Shown: positions 2,723-21,736 of the stretch, one piece after another
Layout: each line of letters opens with the position of its first letter
Position numbering within the stretch: the first letter of the stretch is position 1
DNA from: a virus
Virus record (IMG/VR): IMGVR_UViG_3300021962_000596
Span: 1 to 25,391 of that record
Reading direction: 5' to 3' (one strand)
Length of the DNA: 25,391 nt
The notes under the pieces: model-generated
Told to the model about the DNA's origin: nothing
Seen by the model: only the letters and a program-made list of their open reading frames with translations
The model's database searches: none
Position numbers and translations under genes: made by a program

Positions 2723-3328
2723 ATGCCCACATTTGTCACACCCTATTCTGGTTCTGCAGAACTCACAGCATCAAACGGATTAACTGTTGTTACACCTGGC
2801 CTATGGACCTTTAGTCGCCAAGGCTACAATGATGGCGCCACTTTTGGACTCAGCCTGGGTCATCCTCAGCCCTTGAGCGGCGAACTTCTGCATCTACGGG
2901 CCCAAGCATGGCCTATTGCTGTGATTGGCAACGAACTAACCAGCTATACTGATCCTCAAACCAGCATCACTTACGGCCCTGAGCTGTGTAGGATTGTGAT
3001 CACTGGTGCTTGGTTGGTTGTGCGCCAACAAAATTCTAACAGCTACAACAGTTTCAACATCACATATTCTGCCACCACTGTAACAGACTTGGGTGATCGT
3101 GAGATGGCACCCTATCTTTTAAACTATGCAAGCCCGCAGGCCACTTATGTGATACAAGGGTCAGGTGTAGCAGGTGGTGCACAAGATACGTTTACCAATC
3201 ATGTGTGGGAATTTCGTGCCACCGAATCAGCTGCCAGTACCAACAGCAACCGAGAATTCCAAAGTAATACCACTACCAGACCAGCTTGGGTCTATACCTA
3301 TTCGAAGAGTTGGCAAACTGCTGCCTAG
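2723..3328 (+). CDS. Beta-rich probable virion protein, family not recognised
   Basis: The 201-residue product is rich in Ser, Thr, Gly, Tyr and Trp and poor in Lys, with no signal peptide or membrane segment. This is the composition of a phage beta-sandwich or fibre-type protein. It is driven by its own late promoter and follows a terminator, so it can be expressed alone. Its TAG stop (3326-3328) lies in a CTAG that also gives the TAG stop of the opposing gene. The virion role is inferred from promoter, composition and neighbours only. Confidence 0.65.
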   Translation: MPTFVTPYSGSAELTASNGLTVVTPGLWTFSRQGYNDGATFGLSLGHPQPLSGELLHLRAQAWPIAVIGNELTSYTDPQTSITYGPELCRIVITGAWLVVRQQNSNSYNSFNITYSATTVTDLGDREMAPYLLNYASPQATYVIQGSGVAGGAQDTFTNHVWEFRATESAASTNSNREFQSNTTTRPAWVYTYSKSWQTAA

Positions 3329-4458
3329 ATTTTAAAAAGATTTAGGTGCCGGGAAATTTGAGTCACAACAGGTCCCCAGTTGCCCATTGTGGGTTGGCGA
3401 AATAATCTCACAGTGGGATACCAAGGGCTATCAGCACGATTAAGTAACCAACGCCAATCCTGTCCGTATTGATTCAACATGATCCACGTGGTGCGGCCTA
3501 ACGCACCGGCCAAATGACTCACAGCAGTATCAACACCGACAACCACATCCATGCATGTTATTAGCGCAGCTGAATCTGCCATGCAGGTGATAGTGCCAGG
3601 ATATGTAGTACAGCCCAAATCAGTTAGTATTTTGGATTCCTTGTCGCTGGCATCGATCTGTAGATTTATCCATTCGCATTCGGGGTTGTATTTTATCAAC
3701 TCGACTATTTGACTAAACGGAACTGATTTGTGTTGATGTATCCAAGTATCTTTTCTACCTGACCAACTAAATCCCACGCGAAGTTTTTTCTTGGTACCCA
3801 GTCGCTGTTGCCATTGCCTTACAAGAGCTTGATCAGGAGATAGATAGCTCAGCGGGCTAGATAAATTTTCTAAAGTGATTCCCAGGATTCCTGGAATACT
3901 CATGATAGTAATCCAGTAATCGTACGGCGGTAAAGGATCGTTGTAGGCTATTGTGCTTGGACCAAACAAACCAATCATAGCAGGATCAACTACCATCACA
4001 ACCGTGGCTCCTAGTTGCTGCAAATTGAGAACAAATCTTGCAAATTGAATAGTGTCTCCTAATCCCTGTTCTCCGATGACCAAGATTGTTTTGCCTGAGA
4101 GATCTTGGCCCGACCATCTGGGCTGCGGCAACTGTGGTAATGTACCTTTGAGATGGGCAAATGTCCACCGATCTTCGTAGGCGGGCCAACCCTGTTGATA
4201 GTTGCCTTGCAACAGTAAACACACTGCTAGGTTGAAACGTGCTGTTTCGTTTGCGGGATCTAACCGTATGGCATGTTCTAAAAATGGTTGAGCACGATCT
4301 GGAAATCCCATTTCTCTCATGACATTGCCATAGTTGTTGAATGCACTAGTGGATGTATAATCCTGTACAAATGCCTGAGCATAACAGGCCAGGGCCAAGT
4401 CGGGTTGATGACGTTCTCTATGAGTGTTGCCTTGTGCTATTAACAGTTCTGTTTCCAT
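3325..4458 (-). CDS. TPR plus GT9-like (heptosyltransferase-type) glycosyltransferase
   Basis: This encodes 377 residues from the chosen ATG at 4458. The frame extends 7 codons further, but this ATG lies 5 bases behind a minus-strand late-promoter-like octamer. Residues 1-100 form tetratricopeptide helices (NNYGNVMREMG, LEHAIRLDP, RFNLAVCLLLQG). A Rossmann-type GT-B region follows, with GEQGLGD at about 129-135 and GVDTAVSHLAGALG at about 308-321, then DWRWL near 334-338 and a closing SPWYPTVRLFRQ. This is the usual end of bacterial TPR-fused GT9-like proteins. Family enzymes transfer sugars from activated donors; donor and acceptor here are unknown. It lies antisense among virion genes, so modification of fibres or host glycans is inference. 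Confidence 0.8.
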   Translation of the reverse strand: METELLIAQGNTHRERHQPDLALACYAQAFVQDYTSTSAFNNYGNVMREMGFPDRAQPFLEHAIRLDPANETARFNLAVCLLLQGNYQQGWPAYEDRWTFAHLKGTLPQLPQPRWSGQDLSGKTILVIGEQGLGDTIQFARFVLNLQQLGATVVMVVDPAMIGLFGPSTIAYNDPLPPYDYWITIMSIPGILGITLENLSSPLSYLSPDQALVRQWQQRLGTKKKLRVGFSWSGRKDTWIHQHKSVPFSQIVELIKYNPECEWINLQIDASDKESKILTDLGCTTYPGTITCMADSAALITCMDVVVGVDTAVSHLAGALGRTTWIMLNQYGQDWRWLLNRADSPWYPTVRLFRQPTMGNWGPVVTQISRHLNLFKI

Positions 4459-4463
4459 GCAGA

Positions 4464-4471
4464 TATTTACT
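4464..4471 (-). promoter_or_regulatory. Minus-strand late-promoter-like octamer AGTAAATA
   Basis: Read on the minus strand, the octamer AGTAAATA ends 5 bases before the ATG at 4458. This is the same close spacing seen at 173-180 and 2711-2718. It supports the shorter start of the TPR-glycosyltransferase. Confidence 0.5.
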
Positions 4472-4496
4472 GCGTACATGTGATATCAAATTATTT

Positions 4497-4504
4497 TATA
4501 AATA
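4497..4504 (+). promoter_or_regulatory. T4-type late promoter TATAAATA
   Basis: This is an exact late-promoter octamer, 83 bases before the ATG at 4588. It leaves an unusually long leader carrying a hairpin (4532-4550) and a good Shine-Dalgarno sequence. It is divergent from the minus-strand element at 4464-4471. Confidence 0.75.
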
Positions 4505-4531
4505 AATCATACGACGCACGGGTTGCGTTTT

Positions 4532-4550: not shown

Positions 4551-4587
4551 AGGCCTAGAACGCCTAACTTTTAAAGGAAAAGAAAAA

Positions 4588-5190
4588 ATGGGTCGTCCAC
4601 TAAAAATCAAAAAATCCACAACCACTGACATTGGTTTCAACGCTTGGAATCAGTTGACCAATCCAGTTTACCCTGCCACATTCAACGCTGACCAGTACGC
4701 TGGTGTAGTTGGTGGTGTTGGCAACGGCGGCGGTGTTGCTACAGCAGCTTATCCTGTTGTCAAGTGCAGAGTTTTCATTGCAGGACAAAGCGAAGAAGAC
4801 GGTTTTATTATCCGTCAAAAAGGCACAAGAAAGTACCTAGTTGAAGGTGCCAGCTCGGGCGAGCAAGGTGTTTGCGTACTAGCTAACGAAGCACAAGGCG
4901 CACTAACAGAAGGCAACATGAACATCAGTTTTGCATTAGATGCTGACAGTTCAGAAGTGTTGATCAGCAAGTTGACCAACAAATACGCTTATGATTTTAC
5001 AGGCGGTGAAGTTGGTGGGGCTGCTCCAGGCGGATTTGCCCAAGATCTTGTACAACAAAACGTGCGTTATGCAGCTGACTTCTTCACAGACGAAGGCACT
5101 GCAATCAAGTCGGGTACCACAGGTCAGCAAAACACTGCTACACAGCAGAACTTGTTGAACTTTGTAATTGTAGAAAATTACACAAGCTAA
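4588..5190 (+). CDS. Probable abundant virion protein (MGRPLKIKK... family), function unknown
   Basis: This encodes 200 residues. I chose the ATG at 4588 because AAAGGAAA (4573-4580) sits at the right distance and the protein then starts MGRPLKIKKSTTTDIGFNAW. The open frame upstream to 4480 only runs through the leader. It has a short basic start, then a beta-rich body with a Gly-rich loop (GVVGGVGNGGG), IIRQKGTRKYLVEG near 74-87 and NKYAYDF near 130. I recall similar MGRPLKIKK proteins in T4-like marine phages without assigned function. The strong late promoter, structured leader, strong ribosome site and terminator right behind it fit a highly expressed structural protein. Confidence 0.75.
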   Translation: MGRPLKIKKSTTTDIGFNAWNQLTNPVYPATFNADQYAGVVGGVGNGGGVATAAYPVVKCRVFIAGQSEEDGFIIRQKGTRKYLVEGASSGEQGVCVLANEAQGALTEGNMNISFALDADSSEVLISKLTNKYAYDFTGGEVGGAAPGGFAQDLVQQNVRYAADFFTDEGTAIKSGTTGQQNTATQQNLLNFVIVENYTS

Positions 5191-5237: not shown

Positions 5238-5822
5238 ATGGCCGCTTTTGTACTAGGTAATGGTGTTAGCCGCAGCAGCATTGATGTTGATCAACTGCTG
5301 ACATTGGGCATGGTCTACGGGTGCAATGGCCTGTATCGTACACACACACCCACAGTTTTGGTATCAACTGATCGTCCCATCAGCACTGTAATACAGGAAT
5401 CTGGGTATAGTAACAAAAACAGATTTTACACACGCAGACCTGCACCGGGATCGGGTGCTCAAATGGTGCCGCAAAAATATCGCGGTTTTAGTTCAGGTCC
5501 CATTGCTGTCAGCATTGCTTGTGAAGACCTAAATCGCAGGATTTATCTCTTGGGATTTGATATGGGTCCAACCGTGGTGGGAAAGTTCAATAATGTCTAT
5601 GCTGGAACTGAGTTTTACAAGCCTGCAGATGCCAATCCCACGTTTACTGGCAACTGGATTAGGCAATTATCTCAAGTAATTCGTGACTTTCCTGGGGTGG
5701 AATTTATACGTGTGTCTGGTGATACCACTGCTGATATCTCGGACTTCAACGGGCTAACAAATTTACAAAGTCTGCCGATTGCGGACTTTGTAGCTCGAAT
5801 AAATACAACAAAGGATCTATAG
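5238..5822 (+). CDS. GT42 sialyltransferase/MptE (DUF115)-like Rossmann protein
   Basis: This encodes 194 residues. The N-terminus FVLGNGVSRSSIDVDQL is followed by YGCNGLYR (about 27-34), with a central FSSGPIAVSIAC and RIYLLGFDMG. This matches the pattern of GT42 sialyltransferases and DUF115/MptE-like proteins: a nucleotide-binding G-N-G-x-S loop, C-N-x-x-Y, then S-G-x-x-A ... I-Y-L-x-G-x-D. Known members transfer sialic acid-type sugars or pyrophosphate groups. At 194 residues it is shorter than full-length sialyltransferases, so catalysis is uncertain. It starts right at a terminator that carries its GGGAGGA site. A diverged relative lies at 20661-21326, at the other end of the fibre cluster. 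The fold is likely; the reaction is inference. Confidence 0.6.
   Translation: MAAFVLGNGVSRSSIDVDQLLTLGMVYGCNGLYRTHTPTVLVSTDRPISTVIQESGYSNKNRFYTRRPAPGSGAQMVPQKYRGFSSGPIAVSIACEDLNRRIYLLGFDMGPTVVGKFNNVYAGTEFYKPADANPTFTGNWIRQLSQVIRDFPGVEFIRVSGDTTADISDFNGLTNLQSLPIADFVARINTTKDL
5798..5805 (+). promoter_or_regulatory. Late-promoter-like octamer AATAAATA
   Basis: The TAAATA-core octamer lies inside the 3' end of the preceding gene, 21 bases before the ATG at 5827. AAAGGA (5810-5815) follows. It probably starts transcription of the fibre run from 5827. Confidence 0.5.
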
Positions 5823-5826
5823 ACAT

Positions 5827-6444
5827 ATGGCTACCCACAAACGAATAGATGGTACCTACTACATCAACACTGTCAACGGTATAGACAACGTTGAAATTAC
5901 CACACATACTGTAAAAGTATTTGGTAACTTGGATGTACAAGGTAACATTACCTATATTGATACAACGGAACTGGACATCACAGATCCTTTTATCACGTTG
6001 GCTGCCAACAACACCGGCCTTTATTCAAACGTGGGAATTCTGGCACAAAAGGCATCAAGCCCCAATACCTACGCTAGTCTGCGTTGGAATACCAATAGTG
6101 GAACCTGGCAAATCAGTACAGATAATGCGACGTTTTTAGATATTGCAGCAGGCAATACCACAACGCCGCCGGGTGGTGCCAACAAAGACATACAGTTTAA
6201 CAGTGTAGGTGCTTTTGGCGGCAATGTCAACTATACATTTGATGTGGCCAATGTCCGAGTTACCTTGCAAGGACATCAGGTATTTGGCAATATTGTTACG
6301 GCTCCCACTGCTGTAGCCAACTCGGTAGCTGTGTATCACAACGCAGAAGGCACAGGTGGTACTGGTCTTTATGTCAAGAGTCCCAGTGTCCAAGATGAAT
6401 TAGTCAGCAAGAGCAAAGCTATTGTGTTTGCTATTATATTTTAA
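5827..6444 (+). CDS. Fibre-type virion protein with a 'DPxIxLA' domain
   Basis: This encodes 205 residues. The N-terminal half has GNLDVQGNITYIDTTELDITDPFITLA, then NVGILAQK, SLRWNTNSGTWQIS. This block recurs in the large fibre (residues about 50-115) and in the fibre at 13902 (VVGDPLIFIGED...WVRDASDGTWKL), so it is an exchangeable fibre domain. The C-terminal half has GTGLYVKS and ends DELVSKSKAIVFAIIF. There are no membrane or catalytic signatures. AAAGGA at 5810-5815 is 11 bases from the ATG. A role in a tail-fibre or baseplate appendage is inferred from shared domains. Confidence 0.7.
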   Translation: MATHKRIDGTYYINTVNGIDNVEITTHTVKVFGNLDVQGNITYIDTTELDITDPFITLAANNTGLYSNVGILAQKASSPNTYASLRWNTNSGTWQISTDNATFLDIAAGNTTTPPGGANKDIQFNSVGAFGGNVNYTFDVANVRVTLQGHQVFGNIVTAPTAVANSVAVYHNAEGTGGTGLYVKSPSVQDELVSKSKAIVFAIIF

Positions 6445-6453
6445 GGAATAAAA

Positions 6454-6768
6454 ATGTCAATTTTCGTAGGTAACGTAACTACCGCAGCATCAAATGTTTA
6501 TGTCAGCTCTGGACAAACTGCAATCACTTTTATGAGTTTGTGTAACTATACTGCCGGTAATGTCACAGCAAACGTGTATGTTGTGCCCAGCGGTGGCAGT
6601 GCTGGCAACGCCAACATTGTGTTGGCCAGCATCGAACTCACAGCTTTAGACACATACCAACTGTATGCCGGTGGAGAAAAACTCTTGTTGGGGGTGGGAG
6701 ATACAGTACAAGTTAATGCCAACGCCAACAATTCCATAACCACAGTGGTCAGCTACACTTCGATCTAA
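6454..6768 (+). CDS. Small beta-sandwich-type tip or appendage protein
   Basis: The 104-residue product is an all-beta pattern: NVYVSSGQTAITFMSLCNYT, VYVVPSGG, ELTALDTYQLYAGGEKLLLGVGDTVQV, VVSYTSI. The general layout is like the 108-residue protein at 15909, and I recall similar small proteins beside phage tail-fibre genes. AAGGA (6443-6447) precedes the ATG at 6454. Its stop overlaps the next start as TAATG (6766-6770), implying translational coupling. Appendage function is inferred. Confidence 0.7.
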   Translation: MSIFVGNVTTAASNVYVSSGQTAITFMSLCNYTAGNVTANVYVVPSGGSAGNANIVLASIELTALDTYQLYAGGEKLLLGVGDTVQVNANANNSITTVVSYTSI

Positions 6769-7166
6769 TGGGCTACTACGTAAAAAATCGTACGATACCT
6801 TCGGGCAGTTCTGGTGTGCGCTTGCCAACTGGAACGTCAGCCAACCGACCTGCTAACCCAGCGTTTGGACTCATGAGATTCAATACCGAAACAGGATTCA
6901 TTGAATATTTTAACGGAGTACAATTTATCAGCGTCAGTGCTGGCGGCAATGTAGTTTATGATGTGGATTCGTTCACAGGAGATGGTTCAACCACAGTTTT
7001 TACCATGAGCGAACAAGAATCCACTGCTAGCCAAATTATTGTTTTTGTGGGATCAATTTATCAAGACTCTACCTCTGCTTACACAGTGGACGGTAGCTTT
7101 GACATTACTTTTACATCGCCACCACCTGCTGGGGAACCTATATCTGTAATACACAGCTCGGTTTGA
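6768..7166 (+). CDS. Small fibre protein with two modules shared with the larger fibres
   Basis: The 132 residues carry two modules. Residues 20-50 have LPTGTSANRPANPAFGLMRF followed by a Y-F-N-G-V-Q-F turn. Residues 65-132 have DSFTGDGSTTVFTM, VFVGSIYQ, AYTV and ITFTSPPPAGEPISVIH. Both modules recur in the same order in the genes at 7196 (near the C-terminus) and 8007 (about residues 1436-1535). The start overlaps the upstream stop as TAATG. It looks like a stand-alone version of a fibre domain pair. Structural role inferred. Confidence 0.7.
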   Translation: MGYYVKNRTIPSGSSGVRLPTGTSANRPANPAFGLMRFNTETGFIEYFNGVQFISVSAGGNVVYDVDSFTGDGSTTVFTMSEQESTASQIIVFVGSIYQDSTSAYTVDGSFDITFTSPPPAGEPISVIHSSV

Positions 7167-7169
7167 CGC

Positions 7170-7177
7170 CATAAATA
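7170..7177 (+). promoter_or_regulatory. Late-promoter-like octamer CATAAATA
   Basis: It lies between the stop at 7164-7166 and the ATG at 7196. TAAGGA (7184-7189) follows at a normal spacing to the ATG. Confidence 0.6.
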
Positions 7178-7195
7178 TCTCAGTAAGGATACCCC

Positions 7196-7933
7196 ATGGC
7201 AATCAACCGAATTTCCGGCAACATACTACAAGATAATCTACAGCGAGGTGCTGACCTCAGCATACAAGGCAACCTTATCTATTTTGATGTCATCAACAAT
7301 CGCGTGGGCATCAAGACCAGTGTTCCGTCTGATGATTTTGAAGTTGATGGAATTTTTCGCATTGGTAATGTGGTCATTACTGCAGGAGGAAACATTGATG
7401 CAGGAAATGTCAATATTAACAACCTGTCTGAACCTGTAGCCAATTCTGATGCTGCTACAAAATTTTATGCAGACGCAATAGCAGCAAACAGCAACATTGG
7501 CAACTTTACTTTTAGCAATACCACAATATCTACGTCAGTTACCCCCGGAAACATTACTTTGTTTCCCACTGCCAACAGCACAGTGATCATAGATACTGTA
7601 AGTGGATTAGTTATACCGGTAGGAAACTCAGCACAAAGACCTAGCCCAGCTGCAACAGGCACCATTAGATACAATACAGAATCTGAAAGAATAGAAGTTT
7701 ATGATGGTACCGAATGGGATTTAGTGGCCAGCGATATCAGTTCGCAGTTGATTACTCCCGACGGATCCAGCTTGAATTATGCGCTAGATAGAAGTACCAC
7801 ATCTTCTGCAATATTGGTAATCACTAACGGTGTGGTACAAACACCTACATTGGCTTACAGTGTGGCTGGTAATGTGTTGACTTTCGTAGAAGCACCCTTG
7901 ACAACAGATACTGTTGACATAAGATTTCTTTAA
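7196..7933 (+). CDS. Tail-fibre-type protein
   Basis: The 245-residue product begins MAINRISGNILQDNL, sharing the M-[AS]-[IL]-[NT]-R-I start with the fibres at 8007 and 13902. Residues 20-75 have GADLSIQGNLIYFDVINNRV and a GNVVITAGGNIDAGN stretch. NNLSEPVANSDAATKFYADAI near 78-98 has a counterpart in the large fibre (INDLAQPVQNQDAATKLYVDN). The C-terminal part has IPVGNSAQRPSP and ends with the NGVVQTPTLAYSV...LTFVEAP module. The composition is that of a fibrous trimer. It has its own late promoter and TAAGGA site. A fibre identity is well supported by shared modules; the position on the virion is unknown. Confidence 0.75.
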   Translation: MAINRISGNILQDNLQRGADLSIQGNLIYFDVINNRVGIKTSVPSDDFEVDGIFRIGNVVITAGGNIDAGNVNINNLSEPVANSDAATKFYADAIAANSNIGNFTFSNTTISTSVTPGNITLFPTANSTVIIDTVSGLVIPVGNSAQRPSPAATGTIRYNTESERIEVYDGTEWDLVASDISSQLITPDGSSLNYALDRSTTSSAILVITNGVVQTPTLAYSVAGNVLTFVEAPLTTDTVDIRFL

Positions 7934-7967
7934 ATTAAAACCCTGCTGATGTAATATTCTGTCTTTT

Positions 7968-7975
7968 GGTAAATA
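7968..7975 (+). promoter_or_regulatory. Late-promoter-like octamer GGTAAATA
   Basis: The TAAATA core lies 31 bases before the ATG at 8007, directly upstream of a hairpin that covers the ribosome site (7977-8000). Confidence 0.5.
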
Positions 7976-7976
7976 A

Positions 7977-8000
7977 CTCCATAGCCCCCTGGCAATGGAG
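7977..8000 (+). promoter_or_regulatory. Hairpin covering the Shine-Dalgarno of the large fibre
   Basis: CTCCAT (7977-7982) can pair with ATGGAG (7995-8000) around a 12-base C-rich loop. GGAG at 7997-8000 is the only ribosome site for the ATG at 8007. The fold could lower translation initiation on this very long gene; that is inference from base pairing. Confidence 0.4.
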
Positions 8001-8006
8001 ACCTAA

Positions 8007-11000
8007 ATGTCAATAACTCGCATTAATAACAATCAGATAACAGACGCAATTGCAGGTAATGTATACGTAGGTATTAATGCAGCAGCCAAGTTACAGAATT
8101 ATTCGATCACTTCGCAGAAGATCTCTAATAATTTAACATACGGCTCGGATCTTATTATTGCAGGTAACCTTACTGTTCAAGGTAACGTTACAGCTATCGA
8201 CACCATTGACTTGGTGGTTGAAGATCCCTTAATCTTATTGGCCAAAGATCAAACAGGATCTCCAACTTTAGATATTGGTTTTATTGGCGAACGCGGTTCT
8301 TCGGAAAATATAGCGTTTATATGGGACGAAAGCGCAGGCCAATTTGCCACTGTTTTTACCAACGATGCCATTACCAATTCTGTAGTCACCATATCTAGTT
8401 ATGCTAGTCTACGTGCAAACACTATCACAGCAGCAAATCTTAGTGTAAGTGGCAACGTCACATTCAGCGGTACCATTTTAGGTAATATTTCAGCCACCGG
8501 TAATGTGTCTGGTGGTAATCTTATAAGCTCAGCTTTGGTTCAAGGCGTCACTGTATCGGCTAGTGGAAACGTTCAAGGTGGTAACTTACGTACAGCTGGA
8601 CTGGTCAGTGCCACTGGTAATGTAACTGGCGGAAATCTTACTACAGCTGGAATTGTTTCTGCTGCCTCCACCGTGGGTGGCGTGATCACTGGTAGCAGTG
8701 TTTCAGTAACAGGCACACAAACAGCCGCCAGTACTGTGGGTGGCGTGATCACTGGTAGCAGTGTTTCAGTAACAGGCACACAAACAGCCGCCAGTACTGT
8801 GGGTGGCGTGATCACTGGTAGCAGTGTTTCAGTAACAGGCACACAAACAGCCGCCAGCACTGTGGGTGGCGTGATCACCGGAACAAGTGCTAGTGTATCA
8901 GGTAATGTCACAGGTGGTAATGTATTAACAGGCGGTGTAGTTTCTGCTGCTGGCAACATCATAGCCAATCCTGCTAGTTTCTTTATTGGTAACGGTAGCC
9001 AACTCACAGGTGTTGCTGCTGCATCAGCTGGATTCCCAATCAGTAATGGTACCAGCAACATCAATGCTGCAATCAATGCCCCCATCACTTTTGGTGTGTC
9101 TGGCACCAGCAACGTAGTTGTATTCACAGCAACTGGTGTTGACGTTACTGGTAATATAAGTGCCACTGGCAACGTATCAGGCGTAAACTTCTTTGGTACA
9201 AATACCAGTGTCACAGGAACAACCACCGCAGCATCAGTTGTGGGTGGAGTTATTACAGGTACTTCGACAAGCGTCACAGGAACAACCACAGCAGCATCAG
9301 TAGTTGGCGGGGTTATAACTGGTTCAAGTACCAGTGTCACAGGAACAACCACAGCAGCATCAGTAGTTGGCGGGGTTATAACTGGTTCAAGTACCAGTGT
9401 CACAGGAACAACCACAGCAGCATCAGTGGTTGGTGGTGTGATTACCGGTTCAAGTGTCAGTGTTACTGGCAACGTATCTGGTGTAAACTTCTTTGGTACA
9501 AATACCAGTGTCACAGGTACAACCACAGCAGCATCAGTGGTTGGTGGTGTGATTACCGGTTCAAGTGTCAGTGTTACTGGCAACGTATCTGGTGTAAACT
9601 TCTTTGGTACAAATACCAGTGTCACAGGCACACAAACAGCCGCCAGTACTGTTGGTGGTGTGATCACAGGTTCAAGTTCATCAGTAACTGGCACACAAAC
9701 AGCCGCCAGTACTGTTGGTGGTGTGATCACGGGTTCAAGTACCAGTGTAACAGGTACTACCACAGCAGCATCAGTTGTGGGTGGCGTGATCACAGGTTCA
9801 AGTACCAGTGTAACAGGTACTACCACAGCAGCATCAGTTGTGGGTGGCGTGATCACTGGTTCAAGTGTCAGTGTCACTGGCAACGTAACTGGTGGAAACA
9901 TACTAGCTGGGTCTGGACAGATCAGCACTTCGGGAAATGTCAATGGTGGCAATCTCAATACTAGCAAGATTGTTGGAACAAGCATATCCGTTACAGGTAC
10001 ATCTGTTTTATTCAACCTAACCGGTAACGTAAACCTAAACACCAGATATATCAATGACCTGGCACAACCAGTACAGAATCAAGACGCAGCCACTAAATTG
10101 TATGTGGACAATGCTGTAACTACTTCAATCTCTTATCACGACGCTGTAACAGCGGCCACCACAGGAACATTGGATACCATCACAGGCGGTACCATAACAT
10201 ACAATCAACCCAACGGTGCAGGAAATGGTGTAGGTGCTACACTAACTACTACAGGTAGTTTTAACCTCATCGACACAGCCAACGTTCAAACTATAGGCGC
10301 AAGAATCTTGGTCAAAGACCAGGGCAATGCTGTACAAAATGGTGTGTATGTGTGGTCAAATGCCACAGCAATCACACGTAGCTCAGACACTAACAGCTAT
10401 GCACCAGCCAGTGCCAATGCACTGAGTATAAACGATTACTTCTTTGTTACCAGTGGTAACGTAAACGCAGGATCAGCCTGGATTGTTGATGCTCCATCTG
10501 GTACCATTACATTTGGCACCAGCAACATAGAGTTTGCTCAGTTTAGTAGTAGCCAAACTTACACAGCTAACACAGCAGCTGGTTTGACATTAAATGGTCA
10601 AACGTTTAGTGCCAAAGTTGACAACAACACCACGGCATTTGATGGTGCTGGTAACATATCAGTCAAAGCTGGTGCAAACTTAACCACACCCAACATTGGT
10701 GCAGCCACAGGTACAAGTTTAAGTGTCACAGGTACTGTAACAGCCGCATCAACAGTGGGCGGTGTTATTACAGGTACTTCAACAAGTGTCACCGGAACAC
10801 AAACTGCTGCTTCAACAGTGGGTGGTGTAATTACTGGATCAAGTACCAGTGTCACAGGAACAACCACAGCCGCATCAGTTGTAGGTGGAGTTATTACAGG
10901 TACTTCAACAAGTGTCACAGGAACAACCACAGCCGCATCAGTTGTGGGTGGCGTAATTACAGGATCAAGTGTCAGTGTTACTGGCAACGTATCCGGCGTA

Positions 11001-13835: not shown

Positions 13836-13841
13836 ACTCGC
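13826..13841 (+). other. Small hairpin across the stop codon of the giant fibre
   Basis: GCGAGT (13826-13831) pairs with ACTCGC (13836-13841) around the loop GTAA, a GNRA tetraloop. There is no T-run, so it is not a full terminator. It may protect the transcript end. Confidence 0.35.
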
Positions 13842-13872
13842 TACAACCAAAATAAGGCAGCCATATCTTCCA

Positions 13873-13880
13873 GCTAAATA
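13873..13880 (+). promoter_or_regulatory. Late-promoter-like octamer GCTAAATA
   Basis: It lies 21 bases before the ATG at 13902. The 3' side of this promoter and the start of the gene are duplicated at 20269-20360 upstream of a decayed copy. Confidence 0.6.
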
Positions 13881-13901
13881 ACATATTGATCGGGTAGAAA
13901 A

Positions 13902-15908
13902 ATGGCATTAACACGAATCCGTGCGCAACAGATATCAAACATTGATTACAAACAAGCTGCACGGGTAGTCACGACCACAAACATCACATTGGCAGGTGGA
14001 GCACCTAGTTCTGTAGACGGAGTTATTCTGGCCGCTAACAACAGAGTCTTGGTCAATGGACAATCAACTGCCACACAAAACGGTCTTTATTTGGTACAAA
14101 CACTGGGTACAGGATCCAATGGTACCTGGGTAAGAACCAACGATACCAATACCACAGGCGAAATGCAATCAGGTATGATTGTAACAGTGACCGAAGGTGA
14201 CCAATACAAAGATACCCTTTGGACTTTGACCACTAACGATCCCATTGTGTTGGGCAGCAGCAACATCTCGTTTCAGCAAAGCACATCTTACAGCTTTGGA
14301 AACATATCAGCCAACGGCACGGCCATCCTGGCCAACACAGTAGGCGATGCTGTTTCATTTGTTGCCGGTGACAATATTTCAATCACAGGAAATGCCACTG
14401 CTAAAACTGTGACCATTGGCGTCATTGGAATTCAATCAACACAAATCGTCAACGGAACCAGCAACGTCAGTATAGGCGCTGTCAACGCCAATGTGGCAAT
14501 CAGTGTCGCTGGAACCAGCAACGTGGCAGTGTTTTCAACTGGCAGCACTGTTTTCAAAGGCAATGCATTGCCAGCTGCCAACATCACTTACGATCTGGGA
14601 TCAACAACACAGCGTTGGCGAGATATTTGGTTATCCAACAGCACAATATATCTTGGCAACACCACTATCACTGCCAACAGCACCAATCCACTTTTGGTCA
14701 ATGGACAAGGTGTTGTCACAGCCAGTGCTACTGATTCTATTTCATTGACTGGCAATATTACCGGTAACTATATTTTTGGTAACGGTAGCCAACTTACTGG
14801 AATATCTACATCATCGTACAGCAACAGTGATGTCACTTCGTTGCTGGCAAGTTTTGGTAGCAACACAATCAACAGTACTGGTACAATCACTACCACTGCC
14901 AACATATCTGGTGGCAACTTGTCGGGTACAAAAATTGTAGGTACTTTGACCACAGCAGCACAACCCAACATCACCAGCGTGGGCACACTCAGCGGCCTTA
15001 CTGTTGTGGGTGTCAGTAATTTTACCGGCAACGTTGACATTACTGGTAACATCAATGCCACCGGCAACTTAAATTATTCCAATGTAACCGACCTAGTAGT
15101 AGGCGATCCACTCATTTTCATAGGTGAAGACAACCCTGGAAACGTTTACGATCTTGGCATGATAGTGTCCTGGAATGACGGCACATATCAACACGGCGGC
15201 TGGGTACGCGATGCATCTGATGGCACTTGGAAATTGTTTGGTAATGTAATACCAGAACCAACTACCACTGTTGACTTCACCAATGCCACTTATCAAGCTA
15301 TGCAAGTTGGTGCCATCACTGCTACCGCGGGTACGTTCAGTGGTAACTTGATTCTGGGTGATGGCACTGGTGGCAATATTAGCAATGCCAATGTTATAAC
15401 CGCGAACACCATAGTGCTGGGTGATGGCACTGGTGGCAATATTAGCAATGCCAATGTTATAACCGCGAACACTATAGTGCTGGGTGATGGCACTGGTGGC
15501 AATATTAGCAATGCCAATGTTATAACTGCGAACAGCGTATTAGCTGGCACAATAACAGCAACTGGTCTAACTGGTTACGTCAAGGGCAATGGTACAGAGG
15601 CCATGACTGCATCGGCCACAATTCCTAACACCAACATCGCCGGTTTAGGTACAATGTCGACCCAGAATGCTAACGCCGTGGCCATTACGGGCGGCACAGC
15701 AAACAACTTGACGATCGGCGGCGTTAACCCTGCAGCCGGTGTCTTTACAACTCTTCGCTTTAACTCGACTTTGTCGGCTAACGGCTCGACAGGTACATTG
15801 GGTCAAGTGCTAACGTCTAACGGTGCCTCTCCCCCTAGTTGGACAACACCAACCGGCGGCGGCGGAGCTTCTGGTTTCGAACAAATATTTCTTTTGATGG
15901 GGGCCTAA
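13902..15908 (+). CDS. Second tail fibre protein
   Basis: This encodes 668 residues. It starts MALTRIRAQQISNIDYKQAA (tag shared with other fibres), then an N-terminal domain of about 125 residues with RVLVNGQSTATQNGLYLVQ and a W-V-R-T-N-D motif. The giant fibre has a similar domain internally. Later it has ANITYDLGSTTQRWRDIWL (about 225-245), LTTAAQPNITSVGTLSG near 350, the ITDPF-like block (DLVVGDPLIFIGED) near 398, three copies of DGTGGNISNANVITAN (485-545), and a GTMSTQNANAVAITGG tail ending GFEQIFLLMGA. It lacks the Peptidase_G2-like end of the giant fibre. A fibre or receptor-binding role is strongly suggested by shared domains. Confidence 0.8.
   Translation: MALTRIRAQQISNIDYKQAARVVTTTNITLAGGAPSSVDGVILAANNRVLVNGQSTATQNGLYLVQTLGTGSNGTWVRTNDTNTTGEMQSGMIVTVTEGDQYKDTLWTLTTNDPIVLGSSNISFQQSTSYSFGNISANGTAILANTVGDAVSFVAGDNISITGNATAKTVTIGVIGIQSTQIVNGTSNVSIGAVNANVAISVAGTSNVAVFSTGSTVFKGNALPAANITYDLGSTTQRWRDIWLSNSTIYLGNTTITANSTNPLLVNGQGVVTASATDSISLTGNITGNYIFGNGSQLTGISTSSYSNSDVTSLLASFGSNTINSTGTITTTANISGGNLSGTKIVGTLTTAAQPNITSVGTLSGLTVVGVSNFTGNVDITGNINATGNLNYSNVTDLVVGDPLIFIGEDNPGNVYDLGMIVSWNDGTYQHGGWVRDASDGTWKLFGNVIPEPTTTVDFTNATYQAMQVGAITATAGTFSGNLILGDGTGGNISNANVITANTIVLGDGTGGNISNANVITANTIVLGDGTGGNISNANVITANSVLAGTITATGLTGYVKGNGTEAMTASATIPNTNIAGLGTMSTQNANAVAITGGTANNLTIGGVNPAAGVFTTLRFNSTLSANGSTGTLGQVLTSNGASPPSWTTPTGGGGASGFEQIFLLMGA
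15357..15533 (+). repeat. Three 63-bp-spaced repeats shared with the giant fibre
   Basis: The 51-base cores start at 15357, 15420 and 15483. They match the two copies at 13074 and 13137 apart from isolated base changes (ACTGCG or ACCGCG). Confidence 0.9.
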
Positions 15909-16235
15909 ATGGCAACGGTATATAAAGTTCTTGGACAGGTCAAACCCGTAGCAACTACAGCAACTACGCTTTATACAGTACCTGCTGCTACTTCAACTGT
16001 GTGTAGCACGTTATCTATCTGTAGTATTGGGGCGAGTACAACATACCGGGTCGCAATTCGCCCCGCCGGGGCTATACTCGCAGACATTCATTACATCGTT
16101 TATGAAGCGGCGATTAGTCAATACACCACAACGTTACTGACGCTTGGGATTACTCTTGCAGCAACTGATGTTGTGACTGTATATGCGGGTACTGCTAACG
16201 TAGTCTTCAATTTGTATGGATCGGAGGTTACTTAA
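15909..16235 (+). CDS. Small beta-sandwich-type appendage protein (ATVYKVLGQ type)
   Basis: This encodes 108 residues: MATVYKVLGQVKPVATTATT, LYTVPAATSTVCSTLSIC, TYRVAIRPAGA, IHYIVYEAAI, LGITLAATDVVTVYAG, NLYGSEVT. I recall this pattern as a common small protein next to tail-fibre genes of marine phages; no biochemical function is known to me. It begins directly after the stop of the fibre and ends in a TAATG overlap with the BspA-type gene, so the three genes should be translated as a set. It may cap or decorate a fibre (inference). Confidence 0.75.
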   Translation: MATVYKVLGQVKPVATTATTLYTVPAATSTVCSTLSICSIGASTTYRVAIRPAGAILADIHYIVYEAAISQYTTTLLTLGITLAATDVVTVYAGTANVVFNLYGSEVT

Positions 16236-18100
16236 TGTCTATTCGGACAGTCGGCGCATCCCCTACGACAAGTAATGCTGGGCTATACGAAAAAACTTTA
16301 TTCGATTTTATTCCACGATCACCTTGGGTGCGTAATCCAAGCTGGCCCGCATGTACAGCCAATATTGGTGATAACAGAGTTCGCGGGTTGTATGCAGTAT
16401 ATCCCGGCGGCGGAAATTTTATTGCTATGAATATTTCAGGCAATTACACTGTAAACTTTGGGGATGGCACAATCAACAATTATACCAGTGGGATATCTAA
16501 TTATGAATATAATTATAATTCAGCCCTCTTAGTCGGAACAGAAGCTCCCGTTACATTTACGGATGTAAGTGATTCTGTGAACCGTGCGGAGCACGGGTAT
16601 TCAAATGGTATGCAAGTGCGATTTTTTAACATTACCACAACTACAGGTATTGTAAACGATCAGTATTACTTTGTTATTAACGCTACGACCAATACATTCC
16701 AAGTTTCGGCTACTCTTAATGGCCCTCCGATTGTATTGACTAATGATGGTACAGGTCAATTGTTACCATACAGAGTTGCAACAGTCACAATAACACCTCA
16801 AGCTGGCAGTAATCTAACAACCATTAACTTTCAAACAAAACACAACCAAGCTGGGTTGGCTAATGGATACGCATCTGGGTGGCTGGATTTAGCTATTGCC
16901 TCGCCAACTATTACAGGTATTTCTATATTTTCCAACAGCTTTGTTCGTAATACTAATATCGAAAGCGTACAAATAAATCAAACGGGAAATATACTTAGTT
17001 TTAGCAGCTTATTTAATGGTCTTAACAGTTTACAAAATGTGGTAATTAGTCCCACAATTACAACTGTAACAAACACGAATTTTATGTTCTCTAGTTGCTA
17101 TTCCATACAAACAGTACCATTATTTAATACGGCTGCTGTAACAAGTATGCAAAGTATGTTCTCTGGTTGCTATTCCTTGAAATCAGTACCACCATTTAAT
17201 GCGCCTCTTGTAACAAACATGAGCAATATGTTTAATACTTGCTATTCCCTAGAATCCGTACCATTATTTAATACGGCTGCTGTAGGCAACACGGCCAGTA
17301 TGTTTAGTAATTGCTATGCCCTAAAATCCGTACCATTATTTAATACGGCTGCTGTAACAAGCATGAGTAGTATGTTCAATGCTTGTTATTCCCTAAAATC
17401 TGTACCATTATTTAATACGGCTTCTGTAACAAACATGAGCCAGATGTTCTCTAATTGCTATCCCCTAGAATCCGTACCATTATTTAATACGGCTGCTGTA
17501 ACAAATATGTTTGGTATGTTCACTAGTTGCGCTTCCTTACGAACAGTACCACTATTTAATACGGCTAATGTAACAAACATGGACAGTGTGTTTGTTGGTT
17601 GCACTTCCTTACAAACAGTACCACTATTTAATACGGCTAATGTAACAAACATGGCTGGTATGTTTAGTAATTGCAATGCCCTACTGTCAGTACCACCATT
17701 CAATACGGCTGCTGTAACAAGCATGATTGCTATGTTCAATAATTGCTTTTCCTTACTATCAATACCATTATTTAATACGGTTTCTGTAACAAACATGACC
17801 CAGATGTTTGCTCTTTGTTCTTCCCTAGGATCTATCCCCGCTTTAGTGACAACAGCGGTTATATCAGGAGGGTTTGATAACATGTTTCTTAGTTGTCCTA
17901 GTATTGCACGAATTGAAGCTAAAAACTTTAGATTTTCATTTTCGGTCTCTGGCTGCAAATTATCGGCAACTGCACTTAACGAAATATACACAAATTTACC
18001 AACAGTAACGTCGCAAACAATTACGGTAACAAGTAATTACGGCACTGCAACGGACAATCCCGCAATAGCTACAGCCAAGGGCTGGACAGTCACAGGATAA
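16235..18100 (+). CDS. BspA-type leucine-rich-repeat adhesin on a phage
   Basis: This encodes 621 residues. The N-terminal 100 residues include a PKD-like NYTVNFGDGT strand-turn near 70-80, then a beta-rich segment. From 292 to 531 there are ten tandem 24-residue repeats of the form [KEQRL][ST][VI]P-[LP]-F-N-x(3)-V-x-N-M-x-x-M-F-x-x-C-x-[SA]-L. These are DUF285/BspA-like LRRs, with a degenerate eleventh. The end, KLSATALNEIYTNLPTVTSQ ... ATAKGWTVTG, is typical of these proteins. Known relatives are surface proteins that bind host or bacterial partners, so a receptor-binding role is likely. The gene is visibly more AT-rich than the fibres before it, which hints at transfer. The start overlaps the previous stop (TAATG). 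Confidence 0.85.
   Translation: MSIRTVGASPTTSNAGLYEKTLFDFIPRSPWVRNPSWPACTANIGDNRVRGLYAVYPGGGNFIAMNISGNYTVNFGDGTINNYTSGISNYEYNYNSALLVGTEAPVTFTDVSDSVNRAEHGYSNGMQVRFFNITTTTGIVNDQYYFVINATTNTFQVSATLNGPPIVLTNDGTGQLLPYRVATVTITPQAGSNLTTINFQTKHNQAGLANGYASGWLDLAIASPTITGISIFSNSFVRNTNIESVQINQTGNILSFSSLFNGLNSLQNVVISPTITTVTNTNFMFSSCYSIQTVPLFNTAAVTSMQSMFSGCYSLKSVPPFNAPLVTNMSNMFNTCYSLESVPLFNTAAVGNTASMFSNCYALKSVPLFNTAAVTSMSSMFNACYSLKSVPLFNTASVTNMSQMFSNCYPLESVPLFNTAAVTNMFGMFTSCASLRTVPLFNTANVTNMDSVFVGCTSLQTVPLFNTANVTNMAGMFSNCNALLSVPPFNTAAVTSMIAMFNNCFSLLSIPLFNTVSVTNMTQMFALCSSLGSIPALVTTAVISGGFDNMFLSCPSIARIEAKNFRFSFSVSGCKLSATALNEIYTNLPTVTSQTITVTSNYGTATDNPAIATAKGWTVTG
17108..17827 (+). repeat. Ten 72-bp LRR-coding tandem repeats
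   Basis: The unit begins around GTACCATTATTTAATACGGC and recurs every 72 bases (for example 17114 against 17186). The strand-forming V-P-L-F-N-T part is nearly fixed at the DNA level, while the M-x-x-M-F-x-x-C-x part varies more. Confidence 0.9.
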
Positions 18101-18103: not shown

Positions 18104-18295
18104 ATGGAAAATACAAGCGGTTTTTATAAATTAGATGACGAATTGCTTTACGGACCAAATTTCGTCCTTAACGCAAATTACGAGTTACGCAAAGAAACAC
18201 ATGAGCAAAACGTTTACCCTGTAGACGGGTGGTATTGGTTTAATTCGGAAGAAGAAGCCAGAGTGTTCTTTGGGCTACCGCCCAATGAAGAATAA
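18104..18295 (+). CDS. Small phage protein with 'PVDGWYWF' motif
   Basis: The 63-residue, acidic product reads FYKLDDELLYGPNFVLN, then YPVDGWYWFNSEEEARVFF. I recall short proteins of this kind beside tail-fibre genes in marine phages, with no known function. It starts 3 bases after the stop of the BspA-type gene, so it is probably coupled to it. A chaperone or fibre-associated role would be inference. The pattern, with a conserved aromatic cluster, argues for a real gene. Confidence 0.7.
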   Translation: MENTSGFYKLDDELLYGPNFVLNANYELRKETHEQNVYPVDGWYWFNSEEEARVFFGLPPNEE

Positions 18296-18307: not shown

Positions 18308-18403
18308 ATGTTCAGTATAATTTCATTTGCTCAGTCGCTTTTTGCCGGGTTAGGTGCCTGGTGGGTTTATTCATTTACCTCATCGGGCACATACACAGCA
18401 TGA
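18308..18403 (+). pseudogene. Remnant of a fibre C-terminus
   Basis: A 31-codon frame contains GAWWVYSFTSSGTYTA, the kind of Trp/Tyr/Thr-rich strand pair found at fibre or tip ends. Its TGA (18401-18403) overlaps the ATG of the next remnant as ATGA, the same architecture as the junction at 20661-20664. I read it as the last piece of a deleted fibre gene. A tiny functional gene cannot be excluded. Confidence 0.5.
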
Positions 18404-18519
18404 TACCCACCCGATACCGTAGAGATTATGCCGGCGAATTTGTGGTCACCAGAACCAGAATGGCCAATGTACGTGGTCATCAGGCACGTGAGTGGATTCC
18501 CAACGCACTTAAAACATAA
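18400..18519 (+). pseudogene. Truncated copy of the GT42/MptE-like gene at 20661
   Basis: It codes for 39 residues (MIPTRYRRDYAGEFVVTRTR and on to EWIPNALKT) that align with the first 39 of the 221-residue protein at 20661, then stops. Over 89 bases (18418-18506 against 20679-20767) I count about ten mismatches. The rest of the gene is missing, replaced by an AT-rich inverted repeat (18516-18532) and the promoter of the kelch-like gene. Confidence 0.8.
18418..18506 (+). repeat. Direct repeat, left copy (partner 20679-20767)
   Basis: About 89% identical over 89 bases to 20679-20767, in the same orientation and 2261 bases apart. It brackets the kelch-like gene, the coiled-coil gene and the fibre pseudogene. 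Confidence 0.85.
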
Positions 18520-18594: not shown

Positions 18595-19545
18595 ATGCAA
18601 ATTACTGGAATGACATTGACAGGGATTACAATAACTGCCCCGGTACCACCGCCACCTGCGACACCAAAAAAGGCAATATTTGGATATGGGTTTAGTGGCT
18701 CTGGTCTTACTGGCGTGACAAATTTAGTATCTGATACTGGCGTAGTTGCCACAGATACTACGGGTGTTGGTACTATTCGTTCCGATTTGGCAGCCGCCGG
18801 CTACGGAACAGACAAGGCAATATTTGGATATGGGGATGATGGTGGCGGCCTGGTGAGCATGACAAATTTAGTATCTAATACAGGCGTAGTTGCCACAGAT
18901 ACCGCTGGTGTTGGTACCGCTCGTATGGGCTTAGCCGCAGCTGGTTATGGATCAGACAAGGCAATATTTGGATACGGGTATGACTATAATGTCCCAACCA
19001 TGCTCAATCTGACAAATTTAGTATCTAATACCGGTGTAGTTGCTACAGATACTACGGGTGTTGGTACTGCTCGTGCGTTCTTGGCAGCTGCCGGCTACGG
19101 AACAGACACGGCAATATTTGGATATGGTGCTGATGGGTCCTTTGCTCTTCAGAGCGTGACAAATTTAGTATCTAATACTGGTGTAGTTGCTACAGATACT
19201 ACAGGTGTTGGTACTCCTCGTCAGGCCTTAGCGGCCACCGGCTACGGAACAGACAAGGCAATATTTGGATATGGAGACGAATTCGCTCCCTCTATAAGTG
19301 TAACAAATTTAGTATCTAATACTGGTGTAGTTGCCACAGATACCGCTGGTGTTGGTACTGCTCGTAGCAGCTTAGCCGCCGCTGGTTATGGAACAGACAC
19401 AGCAATATTTGGATATGGTGTAACCACCGGCGTTGCTATCTTACGAAGCATGACAAATTTAGTATCTAATACCGGTGTAGTTGCCACAGATACTACGGGT
19501 GTTGGTACTGCTCGTAGCAGCTTAGCCGCTGCATCATACGGCTAA
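18595..19545 (+). CDS. Six-repeat kelch-like propeller protein, likely binding or tip protein
   Basis: This encodes 316 residues. A short leader (TLTGITITAPVPPPPATPK) precedes six tandem repeats of 48-50 residues from residue 26 to the end. Each reads [KT]AIFGYG, a variable 9-11 residue loop, TNLVS[ND]TGVVATDT[TA]GVG, R-x-x-LAA.GYG. The order of elements (a glycine-rich strand, a variable loop, a threonine strand, then R-x-x-L) resembles kelch blades, but GYG replaces the usual GG and the kelch Trp is absent. The fold is therefore a tentative six-bladed propeller. Loop sequences differ strongly while the scaffold is almost fixed, also at the DNA level. It has its own late promoter and AAGGA site. 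Virion display is inferred from position in the fibre locus. Confidence 0.7.
   Translation: MQITGMTLTGITITAPVPPPPATPKKAIFGYGFSGSGLTGVTNLVSDTGVVATDTTGVGTIRSDLAAAGYGTDKAIFGYGDDGGGLVSMTNLVSNTGVVATDTAGVGTARMGLAAAGYGSDKAIFGYGYDYNVPTMLNLTNLVSNTGVVATDTTGVGTARAFLAAAGYGTDTAIFGYGADGSFALQSVTNLVSNTGVVATDTTGVGTPRQALAATGYGTDKAIFGYGDEFAPSISVTNLVSNTGVVATDTAGVGTARSSLAAAGYGTDTAIFGYGVTTGVAILRSMTNLVSNTGVVATDTTGVGTARSSLAAASYG
18670..19542 (+). repeat. Six 144-150-bp tandem repeats encoding the kelch-like blades
   Basis: Units have lengths of 48, 48, 50, 49, 48 and 48 codons. The stretch ACAAATTTAGTATCTAATAC and the following GTAGTTGC segment are nearly the same in all units, while the loop codons after GGATATGG differ in sequence and length. 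Confidence 0.9.
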
Positions 19546-19576
19546 CTAATAAAATTCATACAACTACGGATGGCAT

Positions 19577-19584: not shown

Positions 19585-19608
19585 TTTTTACTTCAAAAAA
19601 GAGATATT

Positions 19609-20220: not shown

Positions 20221-20236
20221 ACTGTTTTGGTAATCT

Positions 20237-20268
20237 AAAAATAGGGCAGCTGCTGCCCTATTTTTTTT
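20237..20268 (+). terminator. Intrinsic terminator
   Basis: AAAAATAGGGCAG (20237-20249) pairs with CTGCCCTATTTTT (20253-20265) around CTG, with T continuing to 20268. The next base begins a late-promoter octamer. Confidence 0.9.
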
Positions 20269-20276
20269 GATAAATA
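20269..20276 (+). promoter_or_regulatory. Late-promoter-like octamer GATAAATA abutting the terminator
   Basis: It lies directly after the terminator T-run and 21 bases before the start of the fibre pseudogene. It could still drive the intact gene at 20661, giving a reason for the region to persist. Confidence 0.6.
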
Positions 20277-20297
20277 TCATATTGATTAGGTAATAAA

Positions 20298-20664
20298 ATG
20301 GCATTAACCAGAATCCGTGCTCAACAGATATCAAACATTGATTACAAACAAGCAACTCGAGTAGTGACCACTAGCAATATTGTATTGAATGGTGGTGCAC
20401 CCAATCAAGTTGATAATATAAATCTTGCTATTAATGACCGGTTACCGGTCAATTAACTGCCAGCCAAAATGGCATATATTTTGTGCAATCCTTGGGTACA
20501 GGTTCCAACGGAACTGGAGCATTTACAGTTCCAGTTGTGTTGCTGGAGTAGCAACTGCATTAAACAACAACTTGTACAAGCCCGGCTCAGTGATTGGTAA
20601 ATCACTAGAGTCCTACAACAGTATCAGTGAAGGCGTCATAGAAATACTATTAGGAAGATTGTGA
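20298..20664 (+). pseudogene. Decayed chimeric fibre: N-terminus of the 13902 type, C-terminus of the giant-fibre type
   Basis: From the ATG at 20298 the first 20 residues, MALTRIRAQQISNIDYKQAT, match the fibre at 13902 almost exactly. The reading stops at TAA 20454-20456. The homology continues in another frame (QLTASQNGIYFVQSLGTGSN) to a TAG at 20549-20551. A third frame then gives PGSVIGKSLESYNSISEGVI and ends EILLGRL at the TGA 20662-20664. That last part aligns with the end of the giant fibre (VGAVIGKALADF ... VIGRV). At least two frameshifts and a large internal deletion are needed. Its promoter region is also a copy of that at 13873. Confidence 0.85.
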
Positions 20665-21326
20665 TACAGGCTAGATATCGTAGAGATTATGAAGGCGAAT
20701 TTGTGGTCACTAGAACCAGAATGGCCAATGGACGCGGACAACAGTCACGTGAATGGATTCCAAACGCTGTAGAAAATCAACACATATCAGGTCGTGCTGC
20801 TGTGATCGGAAGTGGTATAGATCGTGAACGCTTTGACTATGCTAGACTACAGCGACATCGCGGTGGATTACTGGCCAAGAAGCGACTACAGACCTATGCC
20901 AGTGATCAAATATGGTCCGACATGCCCACAGATTTCTTTGTCACTATCAACCGCAACACAGCCAAACACATACGCGAGGCTGACTATCACACAAACAGCA
21001 TAGTGTATACTTCGCCTAACATTTGTATGACTTATCCAGGTGATTTTTTTCTAGTGCCCATGTCGCCGCAGTTGAGTGAAATTGCTCTAGCTGTTTACTT
21101 GGCAGCGTTTGACGAACACGAAGAAATATTCTTGCTGGGCTACAACAACGAAACTCCTGTACAAGACAGCGGCTGGATACATCATGTGAATTCAGTGTTT
21201 GAAGCCTACACATCAACTCGTTTTGTATTGGTTGGTACCGCAGTGAACATGCCTGACATGTGGCGCAGTAATCGCAATGTTGATACTGTAAAGTATCGCG
21301 ATTTTGTGACCTATTGCGATATTTGA
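20661..21326 (+). CDS. GT42/MptE-like Rossmann protein, second copy type
   Basis: This encodes 221 residues from GTG at 20661, which overlaps the pseudogene stop (GTGA) and has AGGA at 20652-20655. The first 40 residues are a basic arm (YRRDYEGEFVVTRTR). Then come AAVIGSGIDRERFDYARL (about 46-63) and MPTDFFVTINR. Near the end of the fold is SEIALAVYLAAFDEHEEIFLLGY, the S-x-x-A ... I-F-L-L-G pattern of the GT42/DUF115/MptE group. It ends RDFVTYCDI. The protein at 5238 has the same core order, so both probably share a nucleotide-sugar-type binding fold. The GNG loop is GSG here, and the C-N-x-x-Y motif is not evident, so activity is uncertain. Its stop overlaps the convergent Nudix gene by 16 bases. 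Confidence 0.6.
   Translation: MIQARYRRDYEGEFVVTRTRMANGRGQQSREWIPNAVENQHISGRAAVIGSGIDRERFDYARLQRHRGGLLAKKRLQTYASDQIWSDMPTDFFVTINRNTAKHIREADYHTNSIVYTSPNICMTYPGDFFLVPMSPQLSEIALAVYLAAFDEHEEIFLLGYNNETPVQDSGWIHHVNSVFEAYTSTRFVLVGTAVNMPDMWRSNRNVDTVKYRDFVTYCDI
20679..20767 (+). repeat. Direct repeat, right copy (partner 18418-18506)
   Basis: This lies within the intact GT42/MptE-like gene. See the left copy at 18418-18506 for the comparison. Confidence 0.85.
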
Positions 21327-21736
21327 ACAGCTGATTTTATAATTTCGACTTTTTCTTTGATGGTATCAAAATTTACAGTTGACCATAGGCCCGGATGCAT
21401 GGGTTTGGGCCAAGCAGTTGAATCTATCCAGGCATAACCCAAGTGTTCTTCGTTTAGTACAGGTTGGAATTCTCGGGCCACGCAACAGAAAAAAGTATGA
21501 TAACTGAAAGCACCGTCGGCACTGGTAAACTGATCCAACGGCAACAGTTTCACGTACTCGGGAAAAGAACCCAGTTCTTCGCAGCACTCACGTTCGATGC
21601 TGTCCAATAAGGTTTCTCCTGCCTCGCATTTGCCACCGGGCAATCCCCATGTGCCAGGATACTTGGTGTCGTTGCGCATCAAATACAGATAGCGTTGAGT
21701 GTTGTGAGCATAAAACCATACTCCCACTGCCATCAT
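21311..21736 (-). CDS. Nudix hydrolase
   Basis: This encodes 141 residues from the ATG at 21736, chosen because it overlaps the TGA of the gp15-like gene as ATGA with GGAG upstream. A start 5 codons earlier is possible. The Nudix box is complete: G-K-C-E-A-G-E-T-L-L-D-S-I-E-R-E-C-C-E-E-L-G at about residues 35-56, matching G-x5-E-x7-R-E-U-x-E-E-x-G with Cys in the hydrophobic position. WGLPGG precedes it. Family enzymes hydrolyse nucleoside diphosphates linked to another moiety (for example oxidised nucleotides, ADP-ribose, dinucleoside polyphosphates, RNA caps); the substrate cannot be read from the sequence. It is the last gene of a gp14-gp15-Nudix run and would be made with neck proteins. 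Proximity to glycosyltransferase-like genes makes nucleotide sugars a possible substrate (inference). Confidence 0.9.
   Translation of the reverse strand: MMAVGVWFYAHNTQRYLYLMRNDTKYPGTWGLPGGKCEAGETLLDSIERECCEELGSFPEYVKLLPLDQFTSADGAFSYHTFFCCVAREFQPVLNEEHLGYAWIDSTAWPKPMHPGLWSTVNFDTIKEKVEIIKSAVQISQ

Follow-up and report, generated by a model that had tools for sequence, protein, structure and literature searches.

A fibre island of a T4-like phage with two putative glycosyltransferases and a pseudo-glycosyltransferase behind its last fibre gene

The DNA analysed here, positions 1 to 25,391 of IMG/VR virus record IMGVR_UViG_3300021962_000596 (hereafter the window), is the fibre, or host-recognition, island of a T4-like and probably jumbo-sized myovirus. 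Directly behind its last fibre gene lies GT42B (20661-21326), which by its motifs is a pseudo-glycosyltransferase under selection, and at the left edge of the fibre array lie two putative glycosyltransferases, TPR-GT9 and the GT42B paralogue GT42A. The original prediction had described three sugar-transfer-type proteins which, with a Nudix hydrolase, might form a system for modifying fibres or host glycans. All 4 open reading frames (ORFs) exist near the coordinates given for them, with revised ends for TPR-GT9 (3325-4479, likely start 4458) and Nudix (21311-21751), while a reading as three equivalent transferases is rejected because the third, on its motifs, is a pseudo-enzyme.

Loss of the donor-binding motifs in GT42B

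Outside an extra N-terminal segment (about residues 1-42), GT42B is homologous to GT42A (hhalign probability 99.7, E = 3.9e-26), and its structural model (pLDDT 84) shows a beta-hairpin at residues 12-34 followed by a GT42A-like fold that aligns with the flagellin transferase Maf at Z 12.1. In the window's copy, GSG.DR, YASD, and GYN stand in place of the GNG.SR, YGCN..YR, and GFD of GT42A, and the loop carrying NN.YA.T..Y is deleted. The assignment of GT42B to sugar-transfer proteins consequently survives as a statement about descent and fold and fails as one about function, since the nucleotide-sugar motifs that GT42A retains within the same GT42/Maf fold are gone.

This erosion is not peculiar to the window. 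Both YGCN and the loop are missing from 89 of the 92 distinct GT42B orthologues, the window's copy included, and the nucleotide-sugar site is kept only by the remaining 3 (L034, L037, and L040). The eroded copies form one clade in the GT42B tree (support 100/99) beside the three intact ones (98/95), so that one loss of the motifs suffices to explain them. Within the window's clade dN/dS is 0.06-0.12, which indicates that GT42B is kept by purifying selection and rules out its being a decaying pseudogene. Read from these sequences, GT42B is a paralogue of GT42A that lost its donor-binding site once, before the clade spread.

GT42B is encoded at 553 or more loci, at least, in the viral collection. 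Family-profile searches gave no family match for it, a search of PDB sequences with its profile returned a single chance match, and NCBIfam yielded no match for either GT42A or GT42B. Translated searches (tblastn) of 50,697 phage records with the window's GT42B and with that of L228 found none at the sensitivity used; the motif-intact copy of L040 found only hypothetical proteins of pelagiphages, which match GT42A as well and lie in other gene contexts. On these searches GT42B is a protein of hundreds of uncultivated T4-like or jumbo phages, and the named phage records covered yielded no copy of it.

Putative glycosyltransferases at the left edge of the fibre array

The placement of GT42A among GT42/MptE-like proteins is upheld by several lines of evidence. 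It matches a PHROG sialyltransferase family (E = 3e-6), and all 8 matches in a PDB profile search, each of them weak, are GT42 enzymes. Its AlphaFold2 model (mean pLDDT 91) aligns best with Maf 5mu5 (VIA-align; Z 12.3, 166 residues, rmsd 3.6) and also with the sialyltransferase CstII 1ro7 (Z 10.6, 170 residues, rmsd 3.8), as expected of a GT42 fold, and 4 of its relatives weakly match CST-I. The motifs GNG.SR, YGCN..YR, D45, GFD, and NN.YA.T..Y are invariant in all relatives; within them, G7 N8 G9 and C29 N30, invariant in 37 GT42A sequences, align with the GNG and CN of the Cst proteins. With dN/dS at 0.09-0.18, GT42A is, on its model, a Maf/GT42-fold protein that keeps its own putative site intact.

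GT42A therefore shares with CstI and CstII the fold, the GNG and CN motifs, and the GID/GFD motif, and differs from them in lacking a conserved His base, whereas GT42B differs in lacking the motifs themselves. The best structural match of both phage proteins is the Maf flagellin nonulosonic-acid transferase (central Maf_flag10 domain, PF01973; 5mu5), which in its own system is a transferase with a protein acceptor (Ser/Thr). Unlike Maf, which has three domains (PMC11339370), the phage proteins have no N- and C-terminal Maf domains, and GT42A spans just 194 amino acids (aa). A 268-aa GT42A relative occurs in another context in Pelagibacter phage HTVC008M (L147:4180-4983), near 2OG-Fe(II) oxygenases and a carbamoyltransferase.

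TPR-GT9 is, from its sequence, a plausible glycosyltransferase with key motifs, as had been proposed. It combines TPR repeats (E = 2.6e-9) with a PF01075 GT9 match (E = 8e-5) that barely clears the Pfam threshold (scores of 22.4 and 23.3 bits against a curated cutoff of 22) and recurs in the C-domains of all 9 relatives tested. Fourteen relatives share an E-Q-G-x-G-D loop and a V-D-T-A-x-x-H-L-x-x-A-L-G-R motif, most positions of which are invariant, and a PDB profile search with the C-domain gave weak heptosyltransferase matches amid chance matches. The PF01075 match and the DTxxxHLxxALG motif region are shared with GT9 heptosyltransferases, and one phage relative is annotated TibC; in contrast to those enzymes, TPR-GT9 carries a TPR fusion, is phage-borne, and lies on the strand opposite to the fibres.

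Both genes keep their neighbours across relatives. Among 53 distinct GT42A loci (denominators count those with enough sequence), a small structural-type ORF lies directly upstream of GT42A in 49/49, a fibre-type ORF directly downstream in 42/45, and TPR-GT9 is syntenic in 37/42; a lack of co-occurrence with the fibres had been named beforehand as a refuting outcome, and both genes in fact accompany virion and fibre genes in nearly all relatives. Larger relatives, one of 344 kb, share the order 398-405 aa protein, TPR-GT9 (-), small protein (+), GT42A (+), fibres, GT42B (+), Nudix (-), and neck genes (-), the first of these being taken from gene order as the major capsid protein.

Late-promoter-like elements were predicted near the transferase genes. 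All 8 ATAAATA sites lie on the + strand, 11-90 nt ahead of + starts (post hoc P about 1e-12), and their count alone shows no excess, the evidence being their position, judged after the fact. The site at 4498 can drive the small protein and GT42A, and that at 20270 the decayed last fibre gene and GT42B. The minus strand carries no such site, leaving TPR-GT9 and Nudix without one, so the prediction applies to the GT42A and GT42B operons only.

GT42B and the terminal fibre gene

In 109 of 114 loci the ORF upstream of GT42B ends within 9 nt of the GT42B start, and most of these ORFs carry the fibre C-terminus ...GKALE...G.IEVxVGRL, a stop/start arrangement that fits translational coupling of GT42B to the last fibre gene. 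In the window this last fibre gene has decayed: an N-terminus like that of the 13902 fibre is followed by a stop and loss of frame, and the gene ends in the fibre C-terminus ...SISEGVIEILLGRL, which overlaps the GT42B start. The adjoining GT42B is intact although the fibre gene is not. Behind the DUF285 fibre cassette and its following ORF lies what is left of a second GT42B copy. Together, the remnant and the broken fibre gene suggest an exchange of fibre cassettes by recombination at the conserved 5' end of GT42B, a reading based on one contig in which an assembly fault is possible.

In T4, the gene that immediately follows the terminal fibre gene (gp38 after gp37) is small and serves fibre assembly or tip function. 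GT42B is likewise a small gene right behind the terminal fibre gene; the likeness is positional, and it is from position that we infer a role for GT42B.

Virion glycosylation and competing explanations

If TPR-GT9 and GT42A are active, they would most likely take their nucleotide sugars from the host and transfer the sugar to a virion protein produced late in infection. The acceptor would be the small protein at 4588-5190, the Ser/Thr-rich fibres, or both. As predicted, the large fibres are rich in Ser/Thr/Asn (35-38%, against 14-22% in TPR-GT9, GT42A, GT42B, Nudix, and the neck proteins). The small protein, which had no match in database searches, may be a decoration protein that accepts the glycan. 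Relatives of TPR-GT9 beside a major capsid gene, in a podovirus, and amid fibre genes, in a cyanophage, fit a virion acceptor. Searches for NeuB in 12 larger relative records and for a CMP-sugar synthetase in 10, several of them fragmentary, found neither, which is weak evidence that the donor would come from the host. GT42B, with its translation presumably coupled to that of the last fibre gene, would most likely act without catalysis as a fibre partner, whether as assembly factor, cap, or tip. Virion-protein glycosylation by the two left-edge enzymes is our best guess, with chances about even, and the explanation as a whole, including a non-catalytic GT42B and a separate Nudix gene, seems to us as apt to be right as wrong.

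Several points weigh against it. GT42 enzymes use a His base (His188 in CstII and His202 in CstI; PMC4202792), and the GT42A alignment contains no conserved His. The predicted fold by itself fits pyrophosphokinases too. Parts of the cassette are lost separately (GT42A in G016, TPR-GT9 in G008 and G017, GT42B in G001 and G003), and this independent loss means that they are not one obligate pathway; what remains of the proposed single system is a pair of plausible glycosyltransferases associated, in relatives, with genes for virion and fibre proteins. Lastly, published work on marine T4-like phages interprets the glycosyltransferases of pelagimyophage host-recognition clusters as modifiers of host lipopolysaccharide (LPS; PMC7029224), a different target.

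That target is the basis of the strongest competitor, in which the glycosyltransferases act on a host surface glycan (LPS or O-chain) during infection, blocking superinfection or the rebinding of progeny. In favour of it, GT9 enzymes are typically LPS heptosyltransferases. A role on the host surface predicts no lasting small structural-type neighbour of GT42A, yet every locus with enough sequence has one, and GT42A lies with that neighbour behind a common late-promoter-like site. In addition, an unrelated podovirus carries its TPR-GT9 relative among the capsid genes, adjoining the major capsid gene. We regard action on the host surface as unlikely, though it deserves the most serious attention among the alternatives.

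Slightly less likely is that GT42B is still an enzyme of changed chemistry, with a new site formed by its own conserved residues H-x-GG-x-L (H66), FD-x-H153, W201, N206, and D220. These vary little or not at all among 28 orthologues and are mostly conserved in the 92, and HxGG and FDGH are present in the three motif-intact orthologues as well. GT42B has nevertheless lost the donor-binding motifs of its ancestor together with an entire loop, and its strict coupling to a fibre gene agrees with a part in structure or assembly.

The possibility that GT42A is instead a pyrophosphokinase or nucleotidyl-type enzyme (MptE-like) draws on its fit to an MptE-type HPPK (Z 9.1, 132 residues, rmsd 3.1), on weak matches of 6 of 37 GT42A relatives to Pfam MptE-like (PF01973, best E = 0.017), and on the missing His base. 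Since Maf and CstII fit the model better and over a greater length, and since the PHROG and PDB profile matches are to sialyltransferases and GT42 enzymes, we consider this improbable.

The Nudix gene encodes what it was predicted to encode, with a profile match of 1e-15 and an intact G-x5-E-x7-RE-U-x-EE-x-G box (GKCEAGETLLDSIERECCEELG); its proposed membership in the sugar system does not hold up. That it cleans up or supplies nucleotide sugars is very improbable, because, although it adjoins GT42B convergently in 124/124 loci, it lies on the opposite strand, downstream of and overlapping the end of the sheath-stabiliser-like neck gene, an overlap that recurs in jumbo phages of the PA5oct type, where the 19-kb stretch compared bears no glycosyltransferase or fibre annotation, and it stays beside neck genes where GT42B is absent (L113, L059, G001, and G003). 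Nudix is a separate neck-operon gene.

Organization of the island

The features of the window are collected in Table 1. The nearest named relatives of the neck-gene products (21733-24485) belong to jumbo phages of the Phosso, Atu_ph07, and PA5oct/Paride types. Within the fibre array, 16235-18100 encodes a fibre-like protein with DUF285 (BspA-type leucine-rich) repeats (E = 7e-47). A 316-aa protein at 18595-19545 has imperfect repeats (AIFGYG...TNLVSNTGVVATDTTGVGTAR) and weak family matches only. Large antisense ORFs inside the fibre genes were not accepted as genes. At 185-988, immediately after a late-promoter-like site, lies a GIY-YIG-type endonuclease look-alike (judged by eye), and an endonuclease-like gene resembling it, again by eye, lies between neck genes in a relative (L160:12421-12978).

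Table 1. Annotated features of the fibre island, in window coordinates
Feature	Coordinates	Strand	Basis or remark
TPR-GT9 (TPR + GT9-like putative glycosyltransferase)	3325..4479	-	likely start 4458; motif and profile matches
Small conserved putative virion protein (MGRPLKI...), candidate acceptor	4588..5190	+	position next to GT42A
GT42A, predicted GT42/Maf/MptE-fold enzyme	5238..5822	+	194 aa; profile, model, motifs
Fibre array (ORFs 5827, 6454, 6768, 7196, 8007, 13902, 15909, 16235)	5827..18100	+	
ORF after DUF285 fibre cassette	18104..18295		precedes GT42B remnant
5' remnant of second GT42B copy	18400..18519	+	39 codons, then TAA; 80% DNA identity to intact GT42B
Decayed last fibre gene	20298..20664	+	N- and C-terminus only
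GT42B, N-terminal beta-hairpin + GT42/Maf fold, motifs lost	20661..21326	+	model; profile homology to GT42A
Nudix hydrolase	21311..21751	-	Nudix box; convergent with GT42B
Tail-sheath-stabiliser-like neck/tail protein	21733..23115	-	phrog_11196, phrog_227
Neck virion structural protein	23115..24485	-	phrog_11591

Relation to known systems and implications

Phage-encoded glycosyltransferases have a role in mycobacteriophage virion glycosylation. There, in phages other than those considered here, virion proteins of the capsid and tail tube bear glycans (Freeman et al. 2023, as cited in PMC12619734). T4-like phages carry a host-recognition cluster with glycosyltransferases (PMC7029224), and the window and its relatives resemble those of pelagimyophages and cyanomyophages in having a fibre island that ends at neck genes, with glycosyltransferases among the fibres. 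The published glycosyltransferases are mostly of the GT8 family, and VrlC and gp14 bound the island there; the island described here, bounded on the left in relatives by the 398-405 aa protein, is a fixed cassette of TPR-GT9, small protein, GT42A, fibres, GT42B, and Nudix that recurs across lineages and includes GT42B as a pseudo-enzyme. Glycosyltransferases in fibre islands are thus already known; what appears to be new is the fixed cassette, along with the pseudo-enzyme coupled to the fibres. A literature search, whose coverage left out most subscription papers, found no earlier report of phage GT42/Maf-like or pseudo-glycosyltransferase fibre proteins.

We tentatively suggest, at well short of even likelihood, that GT42B represents a new class of fibre protein, in which a sugar-transferase fold lost catalysis once and became a coupled assembly or receptor-binding factor, while its paralogue GT42A glycosylates the same virions. 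If this is true, a widespread lineage of uncultivated phages adds glycans to its own particles, with consequences for host recognition and the evasion of defences, and a dead glycosyltransferase has been repurposed as a fibre partner. Given the loss of motifs, a sister clade that stays intact, and the constant position of GT42B, a few purified proteins would be enough to test both claims directly.

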